This document shows positions 17,198-24,983 of a stretch of 35,529 bases of DNA, in pieces. Positions within the stretch are counted from its first letter, which is position 1, and every line of letters starts with the position of its first letter. The notes beneath the pieces are model-generated. The model worked only from the letters and a program-made list of their open reading frames with translations. It ran no database searches and was not told the DNA's origin. The position numbers were made by a program, and so were the translations under genes. Source of the stretch: Tepidisphaeraceae bacterium. Its GTDB lineage: Bacteria > Planctomycetota > Phycisphaerae > Tepidisphaerales > Tepidisphaeraceae. Location: the NCBI GenBank assembly GCA_025450555.1, contig JANWHF010000345.1, positions 1 through 35,529 of the forward strand. Reading direction: 5' to 3'.

Positions 17198-19387
17198 TCA
17201 TGGCGTTCCACCGATTTCGATTTCATCGGGGGCAAGTGGGTCGTCGATGACTCTCTTCTTTCTCGCGGGGACCTGCGAAACGGGACGGTCCCCGTAACCA
17301 TACGTCGCAGCCATGTCGAAATAGGCTTCCCCGCGGCGCGAGACGTCATTGACGATGACACCCAAAACCGTTGCCCCGACGGAAACCAGTCCTTCATTGG
17401 CCAAGCGGGCAGCTTTACGCATCGATTGCCCTGCGCGAAGCACCAGCAACGTGAGATCGCAGCAGGCGGCGATGATGCGCGCGTCGGCCAATCCCATCAC
17501 CGGCGGCGCATCGACAATCACCTGGTCATACTTGTCGGCCAGCGTTTCCAGCATTTCGGAGAAGGTCGGGCTGTTGAGCAACTCGGCGGGATTCATCGGC
17601 TTGATGCCGCAGGGCATCAGGTACAGATTCGCAACCGGCGTCACATGAATCGCCGCCTCGAGCTGCGCTTCTTCCCGCAGCACCGCACAAAGCCCCAGCC
17701 GACCGTCACGGACACCAAAGACCGAATGCTGCCTCGGGCTGCGCAGATCGGCATCAATCAAGAGCACGCGCTTGCCGGCCTGCGCCATGACACAGGCGAG
17801 GTTCGCCGCCGATGTGGTCTTTCCCTCGGCCGGCGAGGGCGAAGTCACCAGAATTGTCTTGGATCGGTCCTTGGGCGCGCCAAAGTAGATGGCTGTTCGC
17901 AGGGATCGATAAGCCTCGGCCACGTCGCTGCTCGGGTCCATCACCACCTTCTGCCCCGCCACAATTTGGCTCGCGCCGCCGGGGATTTGCGGGATCACGC
18001 CAAGCACCGACGAGCGCACGGCAGCGCGAATCTCTTCAGTAGATCGGAGGCGGTCGTCCATCCAGTCGCGTCCCCATGCAAGTGTCACGCCAGCAACCAG
18101 ACCAAGCATTAATGCGATGGCCAGCGTGCGAAGCGGGGCGGGATAGGACTTGCGGGCAATAGAAGCCGACTGGAAAAAGTCGATGTTTACGTCGCCGGCG
18201 GCGTTCTGAAGGTTCACGTCATGGATGCGCGTTTCCAGCGTATCGACGAGCCTTCGCTGGCGGTCGGTGTCGGCTTGCAGCCGGGCATACTCGGCGATCT
18301 TCGCGCTGACTTCGACCGCCTTTCTGTTCTCCTCGTCGAACTGCTTTTGCAGATCATCCCGCAAGGCTTGTGAACGCAGATACCGGCGCTGCAAGGCATC
18401 CGCATAACCCGATGAGAGGACTTCCAGCCGCTGCCGCGCTGCGACAACTGCCGGATGGTTCGGCAGATACCGCTGCTGCAGCTCCTCAAGCCGCTGCTGC
18501 AGTTGGAGGATGTCCATCCGCAGCATCTGCTCGTCTTCGGAGCTGACCAGCACATTGCCCGGCGAGGTCATCGCGCGTACTTCGGGTGGCACCGCCTTGG
18601 CGGCGGCTTCGTAATCCTGCTTATCCTTGAGCACCTGCGCCCGCATGGACTCCAGCGATTGCGAAATCGTAGCGAGCTGTTGGAAGACGACGTTCTGCTG
18701 GTCTTTGCCGCTGAGCACCCCGTACCGCGACTCCAGATCGGCCATTTTCGCCGTCGTTGCGGCCAGGCCCTGGTTCACGCCATTCAATTCGGATTTGTAT
18801 GCCTCCAGCACGTCGGCGCTGTTGGACCGCTTGTGCGGGCGCGTCTGCCAACTGATATAATTATCGATAATCGCATTAACAATGATCGGAGCCTCGTCGC
18901 GATAAGGCGTCTCGAAGGCAACTTCGATCGTGTCGTCCTTGCGGCCGACATCGACCTCCATGTTGTTGCGCAGGTCTTCCAGCGCCGCTTCGGAATCAGT
19001 AAAGGTCTTAAGATCCCTGACCGTCTTCGCCTTGGGAAGATTGGCCGGCGTGCCCAGCGCGCCTGCCAGGACATCGCGCGCCATGATCTTTTCGCGCTGG
19101 GTATAGAGGAAATTCGCGTATTGCCCGACGTCTCCATTGTCTCCGGCGAGGCGCGAGCCAGCCGGCTGCACGGTGAAGATGCCGCGGCTGGTGTAGCGTT
19201 TTTGCGCGGTCGAGATAAAGACAATTGCCAGCAACAACGCAACAATCACGGGCGCGATCACAAGCCATTTGTTGCGCCACAGAACACCCAGCAGGTTCGT
19301 CGTGCCGGGCTGTTGTGCTGGACTTGGAACTGACGACCATTGGCCGTAACCCTGACCGCGATCTGCGGAATGGGAGTTATTGGAAAT
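17198..19387 (-). CDS. Polysaccharide co-polymerase / BY-kinase (Wzc/GumC-CpsD-like tyrosine autokinase); N-terminus upstream of GTG 19261, probable non-AUG start near 19387/19390
   Basis: Wzz-type TM 'LLGVLWRNKWLVIAPVIVALLLAIVFIS', coiled coil, second TM 'LRTLAIALMLGLVAGVTLAW', Walker A 'SPSPAEGKTTSAANLA', 'VLLIDADLRSPRQH', 'VIVDAPPVMGLADA'. Open frame extends to a TGA at 19403-19405. Confidence 0.9.
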   Translation of the reverse strand: MSNNSHSADRGQGYGQWSSVPSPAQQPGTTNLLGVLWRNKWLVIAPVIVALLLAIVFISTAQKRYTSRGIFTVQPAGSRLAGDNGDVGQYANFLYTQREKIMARDVLAGALGTPANLPKAKTVRDLKTFTDSEAALEDLRNNMEVDVGRKDDTIEVAFETPYRDEAPIIVNAIIDNYISWQTRPHKRSNSADVLEAYKSELNGVNQGLAATTAKMADLESRYGVLSGKDQQNVVFQQLATISQSLESMRAQVLKDKQDYEAAAKAVPPEVRAMTSPGNVLVSSEDEQMLRMDILQLQQRLEELQQRYLPNHPAVVAARQRLEVLSSGYADALQRRYLRSQALRDDLQKQFDEENRKAVEVSAKIAEYARLQADTDRQRRLVDTLETRIHDVNLQNAAGDVNIDFFQSASIARKSYPAPLRTLAIALMLGLVAGVTLAWGRDWMDDRLRSTEEIRAAVRSSVLGVIPQIPGGASQIVAGQKVVMDPSSDVAEAYRSLRTAIYFGAPKDRSKTILVTSPSPAEGKTTSAANLACVMAQAGKRVLLIDADLRSPRQHSVFGVRDGRLGLCAVLREEAQLEAAIHVTPVANLYLMPCGIKPMNPAELLNSPTFSEMLETLADKYDQVIVDAPPVMGLADARIIAACCDLTLLVLRAGQSMRKAARLANEGLVSVGATVLGVIVNDVSRRGEAYFDMAATYGYGDRPVSQVPARKKRVIDDPLAPDEIEIGGTP

Positions 19388-19778
19388 GATGTTTGGACTC
19401 CCTCAAAAGTGACACTCCCGCGGATCCTGGATCCTTGTGAAATGCGAGCATCAGACTACTTCCGCGCCGCCATCCAGAGCAAGTGCAAATCCATTGCGTG
19501 GCCCGACGGCTAAAGCGTATCTTCGGCACATTCAGGATAAACGGCCGGAGTAACTTCGGCACCTCAATGAAAACGCTACGACTTGCCGCAAAAGTCCAAT
19601 CTTCCCCGACGAGCTTGCGGTATTGGATGCGAATCAGTCAAAAGCCGAGATGTGATCGCGATCCGGCAATTTTGGCGTAGCCGAATCGTGTATGCTGCTG
19701 TTAAATATTGCGCAATCGGCGACATCCTTCATCCTGGGTCTTGAAGGGCGTGCGCCGGGCGGGAAAGGACATTTCGGA

Positions 19779-20048
19779 ATGGGGATGGTCAACGTTCAGG
19801 TGTGGGATGCCACGGGTGCTAAGCGGCAGGAGGTTCAGATGCCCGATGACGCCCCGATCAATCGCATCCTGGCGGTGCTGATCGAGAAGATGAAATTCCC
19901 GCAGTATGCCCCCGACGGGCAGCCGCTGAGCTACAAGTTCCACCACCGCGCTTCAGGGAAACAATTGCTCGATGAACAATGCCTTGGAGACGTCGGCGTG
20001 CGCGACGGCGATGTGCTGCGCCTTCAACCGGAAATAACCGCGGGATGA
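19779..20048 (+). CDS. Ubiquitin-like beta-grasp protein (YukD/EsaB-like), C-terminus …LRLQPEITAG
   Basis: 'MVNVQVWDATGAKRQEVQMPDDAPINRILAVLIEKMKFPQ…YKFHHRASGKQLLDEQCLGDVGVRDGDVLRLQPEITAG'; Ubl-like 'xL.d.gV.dGDvLrL' and terminal Gly. AAAGGA lies 9 nt upstream of ATG 19779; directly followed by the E1 gene. Confidence 0.85.
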   Translation: MGMVNVQVWDATGAKRQEVQMPDDAPINRILAVLIEKMKFPQYAPDGQPLSYKFHHRASGKQLLDEQCLGDVGVRDGDVLRLQPEITAG

Positions 20049-20049
20049 C

Positions 20050-21345
20050 ATGGCTCTTCACGATTTAATCACCTTCGGCGGATCATCGGGCGAGCCCCCT
20101 GCCGCTCCCGCAGCGCCGGCGCCCATCCGCGTCAGCCATGCCGAGACGCAGGCAGCGCAAGATGACCGCTTTCATCGCTTTGGCCTGATCAGTTGGTGGG
20201 ATCAAAAGAAGCTGGCCAATGCCCGGGTGCTGGTGGTTGGAGCCGGCGCTCTGGGCAATGAAATCGTCAAGAACCTCGCGCTTCTGGGCGTCGGCAACAT
20301 CCTGATTGCCGACATGGATCGGATCGAGAATTCAAATTTGTCGCGATCGATCCTGTATCGCGCTTCGGACAACGGATCATTCAAAGCGGAAGTGGCTGCC
20401 CGCGCTGCGCGCGAAGTTTATCCAGAGATCAAAGCCGAGGCGTTTGTCGGAAACGTTGTCTACGACCTGGGCATGGGCGTCTTTCATTGGGCCGACGTGG
20501 TCATCGGAGGTCTGGACAATCGCGAAGCTCGGCTGGCGATCAATCGCAATTGCTGGCGCGTCAATCGGCCATGGATCGACGGCGCGATCGAGCAGATTCA
20601 GGGAACCGCGCGGGTCTTCGCGCCAGATGGCCCCTGTTACGAATGCACGATGTCTCAGACCGACTGGAAGCTGCTGCAAAACCGACGGTCTTGCAATCTG
20701 CTGTCGCGCCCGGAGATGGAAGCCGGCAAGACGCCAACAACGCCGACCATCGGCTCAATCATCGCTGGTGTGCAATGTCAGGAAGCGATCAAGCTTCTTC
20801 ATGGCATGGAAACGATCAAAGGGCGCGGCTGGGTCTTTAATGGCATGACCACCGATTCCTACGCCATCGAATTTCAGCGCAAGGAAACCTGCTACAGCCA
20901 CGAGATTCTGGAGCAGATTATGCCGCTGGATGCGCGGGCGGATTCGATAACGGTCGGTGAGATATTGACCGAAGCGCGCCGGCTGCTGGGAAGTGGTACC
21001 GAGCTTGAACTGGGTCGCGATGTGCTGGAAAAGCTCGTCTGTCCGCGCTGTGGCCGCGAAGAGCAAGCTTTCATGTCGCTGGGAAAAGTCCCGGCTGATC
21101 GCGCGACCTGCCCGCATTGCCCGGACTCTCGGCGGGAAGTCGTCACCTTCTACAAGATTCGCGGGAACGAAACATTTCTCGATCGCACGCTGGCGCAGAT
21201 TGGCGTGCCTGCGTTCGACATCATCATCGCCCGCTGTCGCGATCGCGCAATCGGGCTCGAATTGGCCGGAGATGCGCAGGCGGTCTTGAAGTCCCTGGGA
21301 CCGGCCGACATTGCCTCCAGCCAGGAGGGACTGGCATGGGAATGA
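20050..21345 (+). CDS. E1-like activating enzyme (ThiF/MoeB/HesA-UBA superfamily) with C-terminal zinc-ribbon-containing extension
   Basis: 'ARVLVVGAGALGNEIVKNLALLGVGNILIADMDRIENSNLSRSILYR' (Rossmann GxGxxG, D.D.IE.SNL.R), 'VVIGGLDNREARLAINRNC', 'CYECTM', 'RRSCNLLSRPEM…TIGSIIAGVQCQEAIKLL', then 'CPRCG…CPHC'. Confidence 0.93.
   Translation: MALHDLITFGGSSGEPPAAPAAPAPIRVSHAETQAAQDDRFHRFGLISWWDQKKLANARVLVVGAGALGNEIVKNLALLGVGNILIADMDRIENSNLSRSILYRASDNGSFKAEVAARAAREVYPEIKAEAFVGNVVYDLGMGVFHWADVVIGGLDNREARLAINRNCWRVNRPWIDGAIEQIQGTARVFAPDGPCYECTMSQTDWKLLQNRRSCNLLSRPEMEAGKTPTTPTIGSIIAGVQCQEAIKLLHGMETIKGRGWVFNGMTTDSYAIEFQRKETCYSHEILEQIMPLDARADSITVGEILTEARRLLGSGTELELGRDVLEKLVCPRCGREEQAFMSLGKVPADRATCPHCPDSRREVVTFYKIRGNETFLDRTLAQIGVPAFDIIIARCRDRAIGLELAGDAQAVLKSLGPADIASSQEGLAWE
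21040..21120 (+). other. Zinc-ribbon-like segment (CPRC…CPHC) in the E1-like protein
   Basis: Translated 'CPRCGREEQAFMSLGKVPADRATCPHC'. Confidence 0.7.
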
Positions 21346-22145
21346 AAGGGAAGAAACGTCGAGGAGCGTCGTCTGAAGCGTCCGCTGTGGTTGATCCCCT
21401 GGCCGGAACTGCTGCGCCGGAGGATGCGATCGACGACGGCGTCGAAGACGAAGATCACCATCTGGCAGCCCAATGCCGCTTTGATGATGATCCGGCTCCT
21501 GCCACGGAGCAGACTGACCTCGAGGCGCCGGCAGATGAATCGCATGTCGCGCCTGGTTGCCCGGATGCGGACGCCATCGATCTTTCGGAGTTTCCTCTTA
21601 GGCTGATCGGTGAAGATCTTCCGGATCGGCAGAAAAAGTATCAGGTCATCGTCGATTCGGCAGTGATGAATGAGATTCATCGCCACGGCAAGTCCAATAC
21701 CGACGTGGAACTCTGCGGCGTCTTGATCGGAAACGTCTACCAGGATGGCGCAGCACCCTACCTTTTGATCGATGCTTCAATCCGGGGAAATGCCGCCGTG
21801 AGCAAAGGCACACAGGTCACTTTTACTTCCGAAACCTGGACGCGCATTCACGAAGTGCTGGAGCGCGATTATCCCGATCATCGAATCGTCGGCTGGTATC
21901 ACACGCATCCCGGCTTTGGCATCTTCCTGTCAGGAATGGACCTTTTCATCCAGGATCATTTTTTCAACGCGCCCTGGCAGGTGGCTTTCGTGTACGACCC
22001 GATCGGCGGCGATGAGGGAATGTTCGTCTGGCGAAAGGGCAAATCGCTTCGCGAGCCTCACCTGCTGACCGGCGATACGCGCGGCGCGCGAGGTGGGTGG
22101 CTGCATCGCGGCGTGGATTGGATCAAGCATCGCTTCGCTTCATGA
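21336..22145 (+). CDS. JAB/MPN (JAMM) domain metalloisopeptidase with acidic N-terminal extension
   Basis: JAMM motif 'HTHPGFGIFLSGMD' (HxHx7Sx2D; 21900-21941) with upstream catalytic Glu in 'DVELCGVLIG'. AGGAGG lies 7 nt upstream of ATG 21336; overlaps the E1 gene by 10 nt. Confidence 0.95.
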   Translation: MGMKGKKRRGASSEASAVVDPLAGTAAPEDAIDDGVEDEDHHLAAQCRFDDDPAPATEQTDLEAPADESHVAPGCPDADAIDLSEFPLRLIGEDLPDRQKKYQVIVDSAVMNEIHRHGKSNTDVELCGVLIGNVYQDGAAPYLLIDASIRGNAAVSKGTQVTFTSETWTRIHEVLERDYPDHRIVGWYHTHPGFGIFLSGMDLFIQDHFFNAPWQVAFVYDPIGGDEGMFVWRKGKSLREPHLLTGDTRGARGGWLHRGVDWIKHRFAS

Positions 22146-23443
22146 GTGCTATGGCCGAAGGCAAGATCATCATCACGCATGAAGATCTGCACAGCCGGCG
22201 GGTGGAAAACCGCCTGCGCGAGCAGCAGGCGATCGCGCGCAATCGCCTTTACGCTTCGCTTGAGGAAGACGCGCTGCCGGTCGCGACGACGAAGCCGACT
22301 CGATTCTGGCATGGGTCAGCATTCATCATGGCGGTCTTTGGACTGCTCGGCGCGATGCTGGCGTGGTGTGCGAGCGTGGGATTTGCCGCAGTTCTTTTGC
22401 ACGGCGGAGGAAAAGTGATCGGCTATCGCCCTACCGCCAAAGCTGATGCGCTCGCGCTGATCAAGGCGTTGAACGACATTCAGGTCGCGCAGGACGCGAG
22501 CCGGTATTCACCGGAGCAGGCGAAGCTCGCCGCCGATGAAGTGCGCGCCAGTGGTCGCGAGAATCCTTACTTTGCAGTCGCAACTGATTCGCGGCTTTCC
22601 GACGCGCAACGCGAAGTAAAGGTCGGCGAGCTCGATGACTCGGCCCGATACAGCGCTTTCCTCGTCGAAGTGCTGCGATATGGAATCTGCGGCCTCATGA
22701 TCGCCATGTGCCTGGCGATGGCCGAGCTGATCGGCCAGCGGAAATTCGGACAGGCGTCGCGCGTCGGGGCAGTCGGCGCGTTCCTTGGACTTATCGGCGG
22801 CGTTATTGCCACGCTGCTTGCCGGACGAATCGCGACCTGGGCCGGCAATATGGTCAGTCACGGCTCAATCTCCATTCGACAAATGGCTTCCGATTCTGCC
22901 GTCTGGGCTGCCCTTGGCCTTTCGCTTGGCCTGGCGTCAGGCCTGGTCATGCGGAACTGGAAGAAGCTGGGCATTGGCCTGCTCGGTGGACTTGTCGGTG
23001 GCGCGATTGGCGGCGCTCTCCTTGGGCCGATGCGGCGATGGACTCATGATCCCCAGATTGCGCAATTGGTTGCGCTGGTTGTCATTGGCATTGTCGCCGG
23101 GGCGGGAACGGGCCTGATTGAACACGCAACGCGCTCCGGCTGGTTGAAGGTGACAACCGGCATCATCGCCGGCAAACAATTCATCGTTTACCGAAACCCG
23201 ACCTACATCGGCAGCTCACCCGATTGTCAGATTTATCTGTTCAAAGATCCAAAAGTCGGCAAGCGCCACGCGGCGGTTCATATCACGCCGGCGGGAATTG
23301 AACTTGAGAATCTGCCATTGGGAATTTCGACAATGGTCAATGGGCGCGCGGTCGATCGCGTTCCACTGAAAAACGGCGATCGAATCGCAATTGGCAATAC
23401 GCAATTTGTCTTCCAGGAAAAGCGACCCAGCGCAGCGAGGTGA
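22142..23443 (+). CDS. Multi-pass membrane protein with C-terminal FHA domain
   Basis: ATGA overlap with the JAB gene; several hydrophobic segments; C-term 'IVYRNPTYIGSSPDCQIYLFKDPKVGKRHAAVHITPAGIELENL…TMVNGRAVDRVPLKNGDRIAIGNTQFVFQEK' (FHA). Confidence 0.9.
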   Translation: MSAMAEGKIIITHEDLHSRRVENRLREQQAIARNRLYASLEEDALPVATTKPTRFWHGSAFIMAVFGLLGAMLAWCASVGFAAVLLHGGGKVIGYRPTAKADALALIKALNDIQVAQDASRYSPEQAKLAADEVRASGRENPYFAVATDSRLSDAQREVKVGELDDSARYSAFLVEVLRYGICGLMIAMCLAMAELIGQRKFGQASRVGAVGAFLGLIGGVIATLLAGRIATWAGNMVSHGSISIRQMASDSAVWAALGLSLGLASGLVMRNWKKLGIGLLGGLVGGAIGGALLGPMRRWTHDPQIAQLVALVVIGIVAGAGTGLIEHATRSGWLKVTTGIIAGKQFIVYRNPTYIGSSPDCQIYLFKDPKVGKRHAAVHITPAGIELENLPLGISTMVNGRAVDRVPLKNGDRIAIGNTQFVFQEKRPSAAR

Positions 23444-23451
23444 TTGGAAGT

Positions 23452-24123
23452 ATGGCGACCCTTTTGATGGAACTTGGTAGTCACCGCCGCGCCGGCCAGC
23501 TTTCCGGGCGCGTCCTGATCGGCAGCCTTCCGATCAACACGATCCGCGTCGAGGATTCGGTGGTGTCGAAGGTGCATGCCTGGATCGGAAAAGATCGCGA
23601 TGGTTTTTATGTTGCCGACGCAGGCAGTCGCACCGGCACGTTCGTGAATGGACAGCGCGTGTCGTCACGACAGCCGCTTCGCGATGGCGATGAGATTCGC
23701 GTTGGCCCGTTGCGATTGTGGATTAGTCCGAATCTGTCGGCACCGCCCGATGCAGAGCCTATTGACTTGACGCCCAAGCCATTGAAAGGCGCCCAGGTTC
23801 AAGGCGGCGTGTTCCACGAATGTCGGTGCGGCGCGCCAATCTGGGTGCCGGCGGGATTCGATCTGCGCAGCGGCCAATGCCGGTTTTGCGGGCGGCCGAT
23901 TGCAGGAAGCGAATTGACCGTTGCTGTTGAGGAAACAAGTAGAGGTGCTGCATTTGCAGATGCGGGGCTATGCATCTGTTCGATCTGTCAGTCGCCGATC
24001 GAGCGGGCGGAAGCGACGCACGGATGTCCGGCATGTGGGCTACTCTTTCACGAGGAATGCTGGAAAGAAAATCGAGGGTGTGCTGCATATGGATGCGCGC
24101 AGGTCGGGGTCACGGACGGATGA
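23452..24123 (+). CDS. FHA domain + zinc-ribbon + prokaryotic RING-finger-like protein (candidate E3 ligase)
   Basis: FHA: 'RVLIGSLPINTIRVEDSVVSKVHAWIGKDRDGFYVADAGSRTGTFVNGQRVSSRQPLRDGDEIRVG'. Ribbon: 'CRCGAPIWVPAGFDLRSGQCRFC'. RING-like: 'CSICQSPIERAEATHGCPACGLLFHEECWKENRGCAAYGC'. GTG 23440 is an alternative start overlapping the upstream stop. Confidence 0.88.
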   Translation: MATLLMELGSHRRAGQLSGRVLIGSLPINTIRVEDSVVSKVHAWIGKDRDGFYVADAGSRTGTFVNGQRVSSRQPLRDGDEIRVGPLRLWISPNLSAPPDAEPIDLTPKPLKGAQVQGGVFHECRCGAPIWVPAGFDLRSGQCRFCGRPIAGSELTVAVEETSRGAAFADAGLCICSICQSPIERAEATHGCPACGLLFHEECWKENRGCAAYGCAQVGVTDG

Positions 24124-24138
24124 GAATACGATCTGGAT

Positions 24139-24236
24139 AGCCCCGTTTATGATAGCCGCGACGCGCCAGCGGAGCGCTTTCTCAGAGCGCAGGGGAAAGC
24201 ACTCCGCTATCGCGTCGCGGCTAACTAAACGGGGCT
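24139..24236. repeat. Nested palindromic element between the RING-like and E2-like genes
   Basis: Outer arms agccccgttta/taaacggggct (24139-24149/24226-24236), inner arms tagccgcgacgcg/cgcgtcgcggcta (24153-24165/24211-24223), further agcggagcgctttc/gaaagcactccgct with one mismatch. Confidence 0.93.
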
Positions 24237-24278
24237 GACAGCGGTCGCTGTAAGATTTTGAGCCGGAGCAGTGCATTG

Positions 24279-24983
24279 ATGTTGGAAACAACCACCTTAC
24301 CCAGAACGATTTCCTTTGCGTGTCCGGGCTGCGGAAAACGTTTTTCGGTGCCATCGGGCTACGCGGGTCGAAAGGCCAACTGCAAGTTCTGTCATGGGCC
24401 CATTGTCGTTCCAGCCGCGCCTGAGCCGCCCGTGAACGCGCCGATTCCATCGCCTTCGGCTTCGCAAAGATTTGCGCCGCTGGAACCGGTGTCGCAGGAG
24501 CATAATCAGAAGTTGCCGATGCGCACCCGTCGGCTGATTGCCGAAGCGCGGCAAATCGAGCAGGCGTTTTTGAACTCGTCGATAATCAAGGTGACGCCCA
24601 TCGCTGGCGATCCGCCGGAGGTTTACAAAATTGAATATCGAATCAAAGGTCTGCGAAAAGGCTGGTTTGGCCGGCCACGTGTGTGCAGCGAGCATCGCGT
24701 GGAGATTCGTCTCACCAGCGAATACCCCCGCCTGTCGCCGCAGTGCAAGATGCTCACGTCGATCTTTCACCCCAATATTGACGCCGCCACCATCTGCGTG
24801 GGAGATCATTGGACGGCCGGCGAACGTCTGGTCGATTTGATCATCCGCATTGGAGAGATGATCGCCTACCAGGCTTACAACATCAAAAGCCCGCTTGATG
24901 GCCAAGCCGCGATGTGGGCAGATCTTCACGCCAACCGGCTTCCGATCGATCCGCGGGTGCTGAGCGCAGCCGAATTGAGTTGA
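24279..24983 (+). CDS. E2 (UBC-like) ubiquitin-conjugating-fold protein with N-terminal zinc ribbon
   Basis: N-term 'FACPGCGKRFSVPSGYAGRKANCKFCHGPI'; UBC-like 'VYKIEYRIKG…HRVEIRLTSEYPRLSPQCKMLTSIFHPNIDAATICVGDHWTAGERLVDLIIRIGEMIAYQAYNIKSPLDGQAAMWA' with HPN motif and candidate catalytic Cys (24795-24797). Confidence 0.9.
   Translation: MLETTTLPRTISFACPGCGKRFSVPSGYAGRKANCKFCHGPIVVPAAPEPPVNAPIPSPSASQRFAPLEPVSQEHNQKLPMRTRRLIAEARQIEQAFLNSSIIKVTPIAGDPPEVYKIEYRIKGLRKGWFGRPRVCSEHRVEIRLTSEYPRLSPQCKMLTSIFHPNIDAATICVGDHWTAGERLVDLIIRIGEMIAYQAYNIKSPLDGQAAMWADLHANRLPIDPRVLSAAELS

Follow-up and report, generated by a model that had tools for sequence, protein, structure and literature searches.

Does the gene at 24,279–24,983 encode a working E2 (UBC) enzyme, and if so, which pathway would it serve? 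The gene lies in a window of 35,529 nucleotides (the whole stretch of DNA that was analysed) from a Tepidisphaeraceae bacterium of the Planctomycetota. The original prediction described its product as an E2-like protein with an N-terminal zinc ribbon and a shortened loop between the HPN motif and the candidate catalytic cysteine. We find that the gene probably encodes a conserved, catalytically active E2, and that its operon context gives it a meaning beyond the details of spacing. The features of the locus are collected in Table 1.

Table 1. Features of the locus, in window coordinates
Feature	Position	Strand	Details
Wzc/EpsG-like polysaccharide tyrosine autokinase	17198–19261	-	TIGR01007 1.9e-50
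Ubl, YukD-type modifier	19779–20048	+	Pfam YukD 8.5e-11; weak ubiquitin match
E1-like adenylyltransferase, ThiF/MoeB fold	20050–21345	+	Pfam ThiF 3.4e-53
JAB/JAMM metallopeptidase, candidate Ubl processing/deconjugating enzyme	21342–22145	+	Pfam JAB 3.9e-13
Membrane protein with C-terminal FHA domain	22142–23443	+	About 6 TM segments (hydropathy); Pfam FHA 3.6e-10
FHA–zinc ribbon–RING-like protein, candidate E3	23440–24123	+	FHA 6e-17; Prok-RING_1 6e-5
Palindromic REP/BIME-like dispersed repeat	24138–24238		Near-perfect; between the FHA-RING and E2 genes; arms 24142–24181 and 24195–24234; fold z -9
E2 (UBC) enzyme with N-terminal zinc ribbon	24279–24983	+	ATG at 24279, stop ends at 24983; 234 aa
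E2 zinc ribbon, CPGC...CKFC	24321–24392	+	Residues 15–38; C15, C18, C35, C38
E2 HPN motif	24768–24776	+	Residues 164–166
E2 candidate catalytic Cys173	24795–24797	+
E2 GDHW motif	24801–24812	+	G175, D176, H177, W178

Domain organization and fold of the E2

The open reading frame and the cysteine codon had been assigned correctly, since the start codon, the stop codon and the residue positions all agree. Pfam UQ_con matches the protein with an E value of 9e-9, better than the curated cut-off, and a profile built from 20 relatives retrieves E2s from the PDB at about 3e-9. The PDB matches are eukaryotic E2s in single-sequence and profile searches alike. A structural model was computed with AlphaFold2 from 11 homologues (pLDDT 77, pTM 0.60). 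A comparison with known E2 structures had been proposed, and UBE2N indeed superimposes on the modelled core (residues 79–223) over 129 residues at 2.8 Å (VIA Z 11.7); all the structure matches listed by VIA for this core are E2s. Pfam, the PDB profile and the model thus agree on an E2-fold protein that carries an N-terminal ribbon, the HPN motif and a candidate catalytic cysteine. The model is unreliable in the loop directly after Cys173 (pLDDT below 50 for residues 175–177), and for this reason no claim on the active-site geometry is drawn from the model.

No NCBIfam or PADLOC model was found for the E2 or for the RING-like protein, and for the E2 this holds in PADLOC up to an E value of 0.1. 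The N-terminal ribbon, regarded at first as an unusual E2 extension, is conserved in the orthologues, and ribbon-only matches occur in many proteins throughout the phylum. Among planctomycetes this ribbon is a common accessory.

Active-site spacing and conservation of the cysteine

The short loop is real. The cysteine lies seven positions after the HPN asparagine, whereas the UBE2C-type match has one position more, and the profile alignment places a single gap column there. From the cysteine to the tryptophan the distance is five residues, with a three-residue gap against UBE2C-type E2s in the profile alignment; in canonical E2s this distance is eight. Both distances are shared by 26 of the 26 operon-type relatives checked, and the spacings are therefore family traits and not a quirk of the window gene. 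A distance of seven between the asparagine and the cysteine is also frequent in other planctomycete E2s (HPNIRGQAVC, HPNVGFPFVC, HPNARPPFLC), whose groups have an HPN-to-Cys distance of 7 or 8. The second shortening, the invariant GDHW and the six-gene operon are additions to the earlier description.

In an alignment of 20 E2 sequences the invariant positions include H164, P165, N166, C173, G175, D176, H177 and W178, and Cys173 and the HPN motif are likewise invariant in all 26 operon-type sequences. Homologues that lack the cysteine had been named as the sign of an inactive, UEV/RWD-like protein. Because the cysteine is kept in 20/20 and 26/26 orthologues, this objection fails for them, and the window E2 retains the very residue whose absence defines such proteins.

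Paralogues that keep the HPN motif and lack the cysteine do occur in the phylum, at other places in the genomes of some relatives and away from recognizable operon partners (L061–L063 and L075–L077). They appear to be bacterial counterparts of the UEVs. The first three are proteins of 840–918 amino acids in which an N-terminal Cys-less E2 domain with HPN is followed by a long C-terminal region (L061:7290-9959, L062:5847-8600, L063:7399-9918); no other operon component was found at these loci. Nor was any operon partner found at L105 and L106, the loci of two members of the L075–L077 group.

Operon organization

The E2 gene is the last of six genes on the forward strand, in the order Ubl, E1, JAB, six-TM/FHA protein, FHA/RING protein and E2, and up to the last junction the genes nearly abut or overlap (1 to -4 bases). 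The last junction holds the palindromic repeat, which has 79 matches on both strands, at roughly 40 places, in its own 58%-complete genome and is outside the operon mechanism.

In the E1, the candidate catalytic cysteine lies within RRSCNLLS, the motifs GAGALG, DRIENSNLSR and RRSC are conserved, and the chain ends in a CxxC...CxxC ribbon. The JAB motif ELCG...HTHPGFGIFLSGMD is complete and conserved (pattern E...HTHP...SxxD).

FHA domains bind phosphothreonine, and two proteins of the operon carry one. The RING-like domain of the second, searched by itself, matches Prok-RING_1 at 2.6e-6, as do 25 of its 25 relatives (best 8e-11), and its eight zinc ligands are invariant and form a C4HC3 set. 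Foldseek does not favour RING over PHD folds for it, as both fit to a similar degree and no E value falls below 0.001. Most FHA-RING orthologues have two or three C-terminal TM segments by simple hydropathy, which are missing from the window protein and from its relative L048. Loss of these helices through the palindromic insert was considered as a cause, a proposal weakened by L048, which also lacks them.

The Ubl and its C-terminal tail

The Ubl consists of a single YukD-like domain of about 89 amino acids (89 if translation begins at the conserved MGM; it might also begin upstream, at the ATG at 19692) and is the sole YukD match in its genome. B. subtilis YukD itself was reported as not conjugated (PMC1779556). 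Type VII secretion partners (EssC/EccC ATPase, WXG100) were sought among the operon proteins scanned, and none was found.

The window Ubl ends in LRLQPEITAG, directly followed by the stop codon. PEITAG is terminal or passed through in each of the ten family Ubl sequences read, and in distant operons 14 of 15 Ubls have -AG (PEITAG, PEIVAG, PEVVAG, TFVAG, IDAG, VDAG, LVAG). Of the 25 operon-linked Ubls, 24 thus have the Ala-Gly end, and only L111 departs from it with IIAA. A stop codon follows the glycine immediately in eight of the 25, and the others carry unrelated, variable extensions. The conserved -AG together with these extensions is as expected for a precursor that is cut after the glycine, as with archaeal pro-ubiquitin, which is trimmed by its own JAMM enzyme (PMC5654768). 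Here the trimming would fall to the JAB peptidase.

Distribution and genomic context

Close matches to the E2 (E below 1e-50) are present in 18 of the 26 genomes of the Phycisphaerae family, and the order of the six genes is identical wherever the contig is long enough. Six genomes from other families of planctomycetes (L098, L099, L101, L102, L103, L104) keep the same order, and some of them have two to four RING-like genes. The other families of the class, as sampled, gave ribbon matches only; the E2 reappears elsewhere in the phylum. At ten loci of the family a Wzc-like gene is found close to the operon, in most cases transcribed divergently from the Ubl gene, which suggests a fixed chromosomal place; the neighbour may reflect a functional link or old synteny. 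With 18 of 26 genomes positive and mostly the same neighbour, the operon is apparently vertically inherited. Loci that rank as more divergent in one component tend to do so in the others as well (Spearman 0.58–0.77), a correlation that could simply mirror the species tree.

Other types of operon occur in the phylum. L107–L111 represent a Ubl operon type that lacks the RING-like gene, and L060, L112 and L113 have E1-E2-Ubl-JAB operons with an FHA/ribbon-like gene; in all of these the HPN-to-Cys distance is 7 or 8 and the Ubl tails are mostly -AG. No relative was confirmed in viral contigs. The single match in plasmids is a distant, mobile relative in the cyanobacterium Crinalium (L094:6251-9728), where ThiF, E2 and Mov34/MPN genes are consecutive. 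A proteasome search gave matches in most family genomes, which may reflect HslV-like proteins only, because E. coli and B. subtilis match as well.

Proposed cascade and alternative explanations

It is highly probable that the E2 is catalytically competent and works in a complete, reversible Ubl cascade encoded by the operon. The genes, their motifs, the E2 fold, the gene order and its conservation are the observed part of this reading, and the chemical steps, the E3 function and the dependence on phosphorylation are predicted throughout. The case is built on the fold and active site of the E2, the conserved order, the close packing of the genes, the complete E1 and JAMM motifs, the Ubl tails, the RING-like ligands and the parallel divergence of the components. 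Points against it are the Ubl end of -AG rather than -GG, the similar fit of the RING-like domain to PHD folds, the low model confidence next to Cys173 and the published finding that B. subtilis YukD is not conjugated. In the cascade, the JAB peptidase would trim extended Ubl precursors to -PEITAG, an end that the window gene already encodes, and the E1 would adenylate the terminal glycine and then accept the Ubl on the RRSC cysteine. Cys173 of the E2 would receive the Ubl next; the HPN asparagine would serve as the oxyanion residue, perhaps with the assistance of D176 and H177 of the GDHW motif. The FHA-RING protein is a putative E3 that would bring the loaded E2 to threonine-phosphorylated partners, the six-TM FHA protein may offer a membrane platform for tagging, and the JAB peptidase would remove the tag again, making the tagging reversible.

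Two alternatives deny conjugation altogether, and both appear very improbable. The E2 could be an inactive, UEV/RWD-like fold that serves for binding only, of the kind suggested by the Cys-less proteins of the phylum, some of them fused to long C-terminal regions; those proteins are separate paralogues, however, whereas in the orthologues the cysteine and HPN are invariant and the gene stays beside the E1 and Ubl genes. Equally hard to credit is a Ubl that acts as a ThiS/MoaD-like sulphur carrier with the E2-like protein as a bystander. The ThiF/MoeB-like E1 would suit it, but an E2 with HPN and Cys, a RING-like protein and FHA proteins are foreign to pathways of that kind, and no biosynthetic gene or rhodanese was recognized in the operon. 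We give more thought to the view that the RING-like domain is a PHD/FYVE-like zinc adaptor, with the E2 conjugating alone or with an unlinked E3, as the ligands are C4HC3, Foldseek mixes PHD and RING folds, and the profile matches include PHD. It is nonetheless unlikely: Prok-RING_1 is the best family in 25/25 proteins, prokaryotic RINGs have themselves been described as C4HC3 (PMC11354881), and the gene is constantly linked to the E2 operon.

Another reading is that the operon serves in conflict with phages, as Bil and CBASS Cap2/Cap3 do. The E1/E2/JAB sets known from bacteria have defensive functions, the E1 and JAB proteins weakly match PADLOC models, and RING-containing Ubl systems have been found in conflict operons (Kaur et al. 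2020; PMC7159879). This appears quite improbable for a system with stable vertical inheritance in the family, no match in viral contigs and one distant match in plasmids, in whose operon no mobile-element, effector or nucleotidyltransferase gene was recognized. With modest confidence we regard housekeeping signalling as a likelier role than defence, on account of the fixed chromosomal place and of the lack of any recognized mobile or effector gene in the operon. The fuller proposal is tentative, and we hold it at slightly under an even chance: a stably inherited housekeeping Ubl system with a full E1-E2-E3-DUB set, whose modifier matures to -Ala-Gly and whose FHA-bearing, often membrane-anchored RING ligases would couple tagging to Ser/Thr phosphorylation at the membrane. 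If the cascade works, bacteria would possess a reversible, possibly phosphorylation-directed Ubl system other than a defence cassette, and the Planctomycetota would offer systems for studying the evolution of E1-E2-E3 relays.

Comparison with known systems

By the features tested, the window operon is neither Bil, CBASS nor type VII secretion. It shares Ubl, E1, E2 and JAB with BilABCD, which has four genes with a two-domain Ubl (BilA) and no RING or FHA gene, in contrast to the single-domain Ubl and the RING-like and FHA genes of the window. BilB-type E2s, proposed for comparison in the original prediction, have a CEHH motif (PMC11354881), whereas the window E2 has HPN...CVGDHW; they are not its closest relatives, since its PDB matches are eukaryotic E2s and it has no PADLOC match. 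CBASS type II (Cap2/Cap3) combines an E1-E2 fusion with a neighbouring CD-NTase, whereas the E1 and E2 of the window are separate, with no CD-NTase among the operon proteins. With the eukaryotic UBE2C, UBE2N and UBE2K classes the window E2 shares the UBC fold, HPN, the cysteine, the WxxG/A segment and the PLN/PLD-AA helix; it differs from eukaryotic E2s by its two shortened distances and by the zinc ribbon in front.

The operon of Caldiarchaeum subterraneum likewise encodes Ub, E1, E2, a small RING protein and Rpn11/JAMM, and its cascade was reconstituted in vitro (PMC5654768). The proposed cascade of the window follows a similar logic. The mature archaeal modifier ends in -GG and its RING protein is small, while the window has a YukD-like Ubl with -AG, a RING-like domain fused to FHA and an additional membrane FHA protein. 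Burroughs, Iyer and Aravind (2011, Mol BioSyst) predicted Ubl/E1/E2/RING/JAB operons in Planctomycetes, Actinobacteria and Acidobacteria, as related in later papers (PMC4197634, PMC7159879), and Kaur et al. (2020) described related Ubl systems, including a Planctomycete Ubl/Pup system (PMC7159879). In a partial literature search, no experiments on a planctomycete system of this type came up. As far as the citing papers convey the 2011 class, it has the same set of components in one operon (Ubl, E1, E2, RING-like, JAB) as the window, and the FHA coupling, the membrane anchoring, the -AG end and the CxGDHW motif would be variant features of the operon described here.
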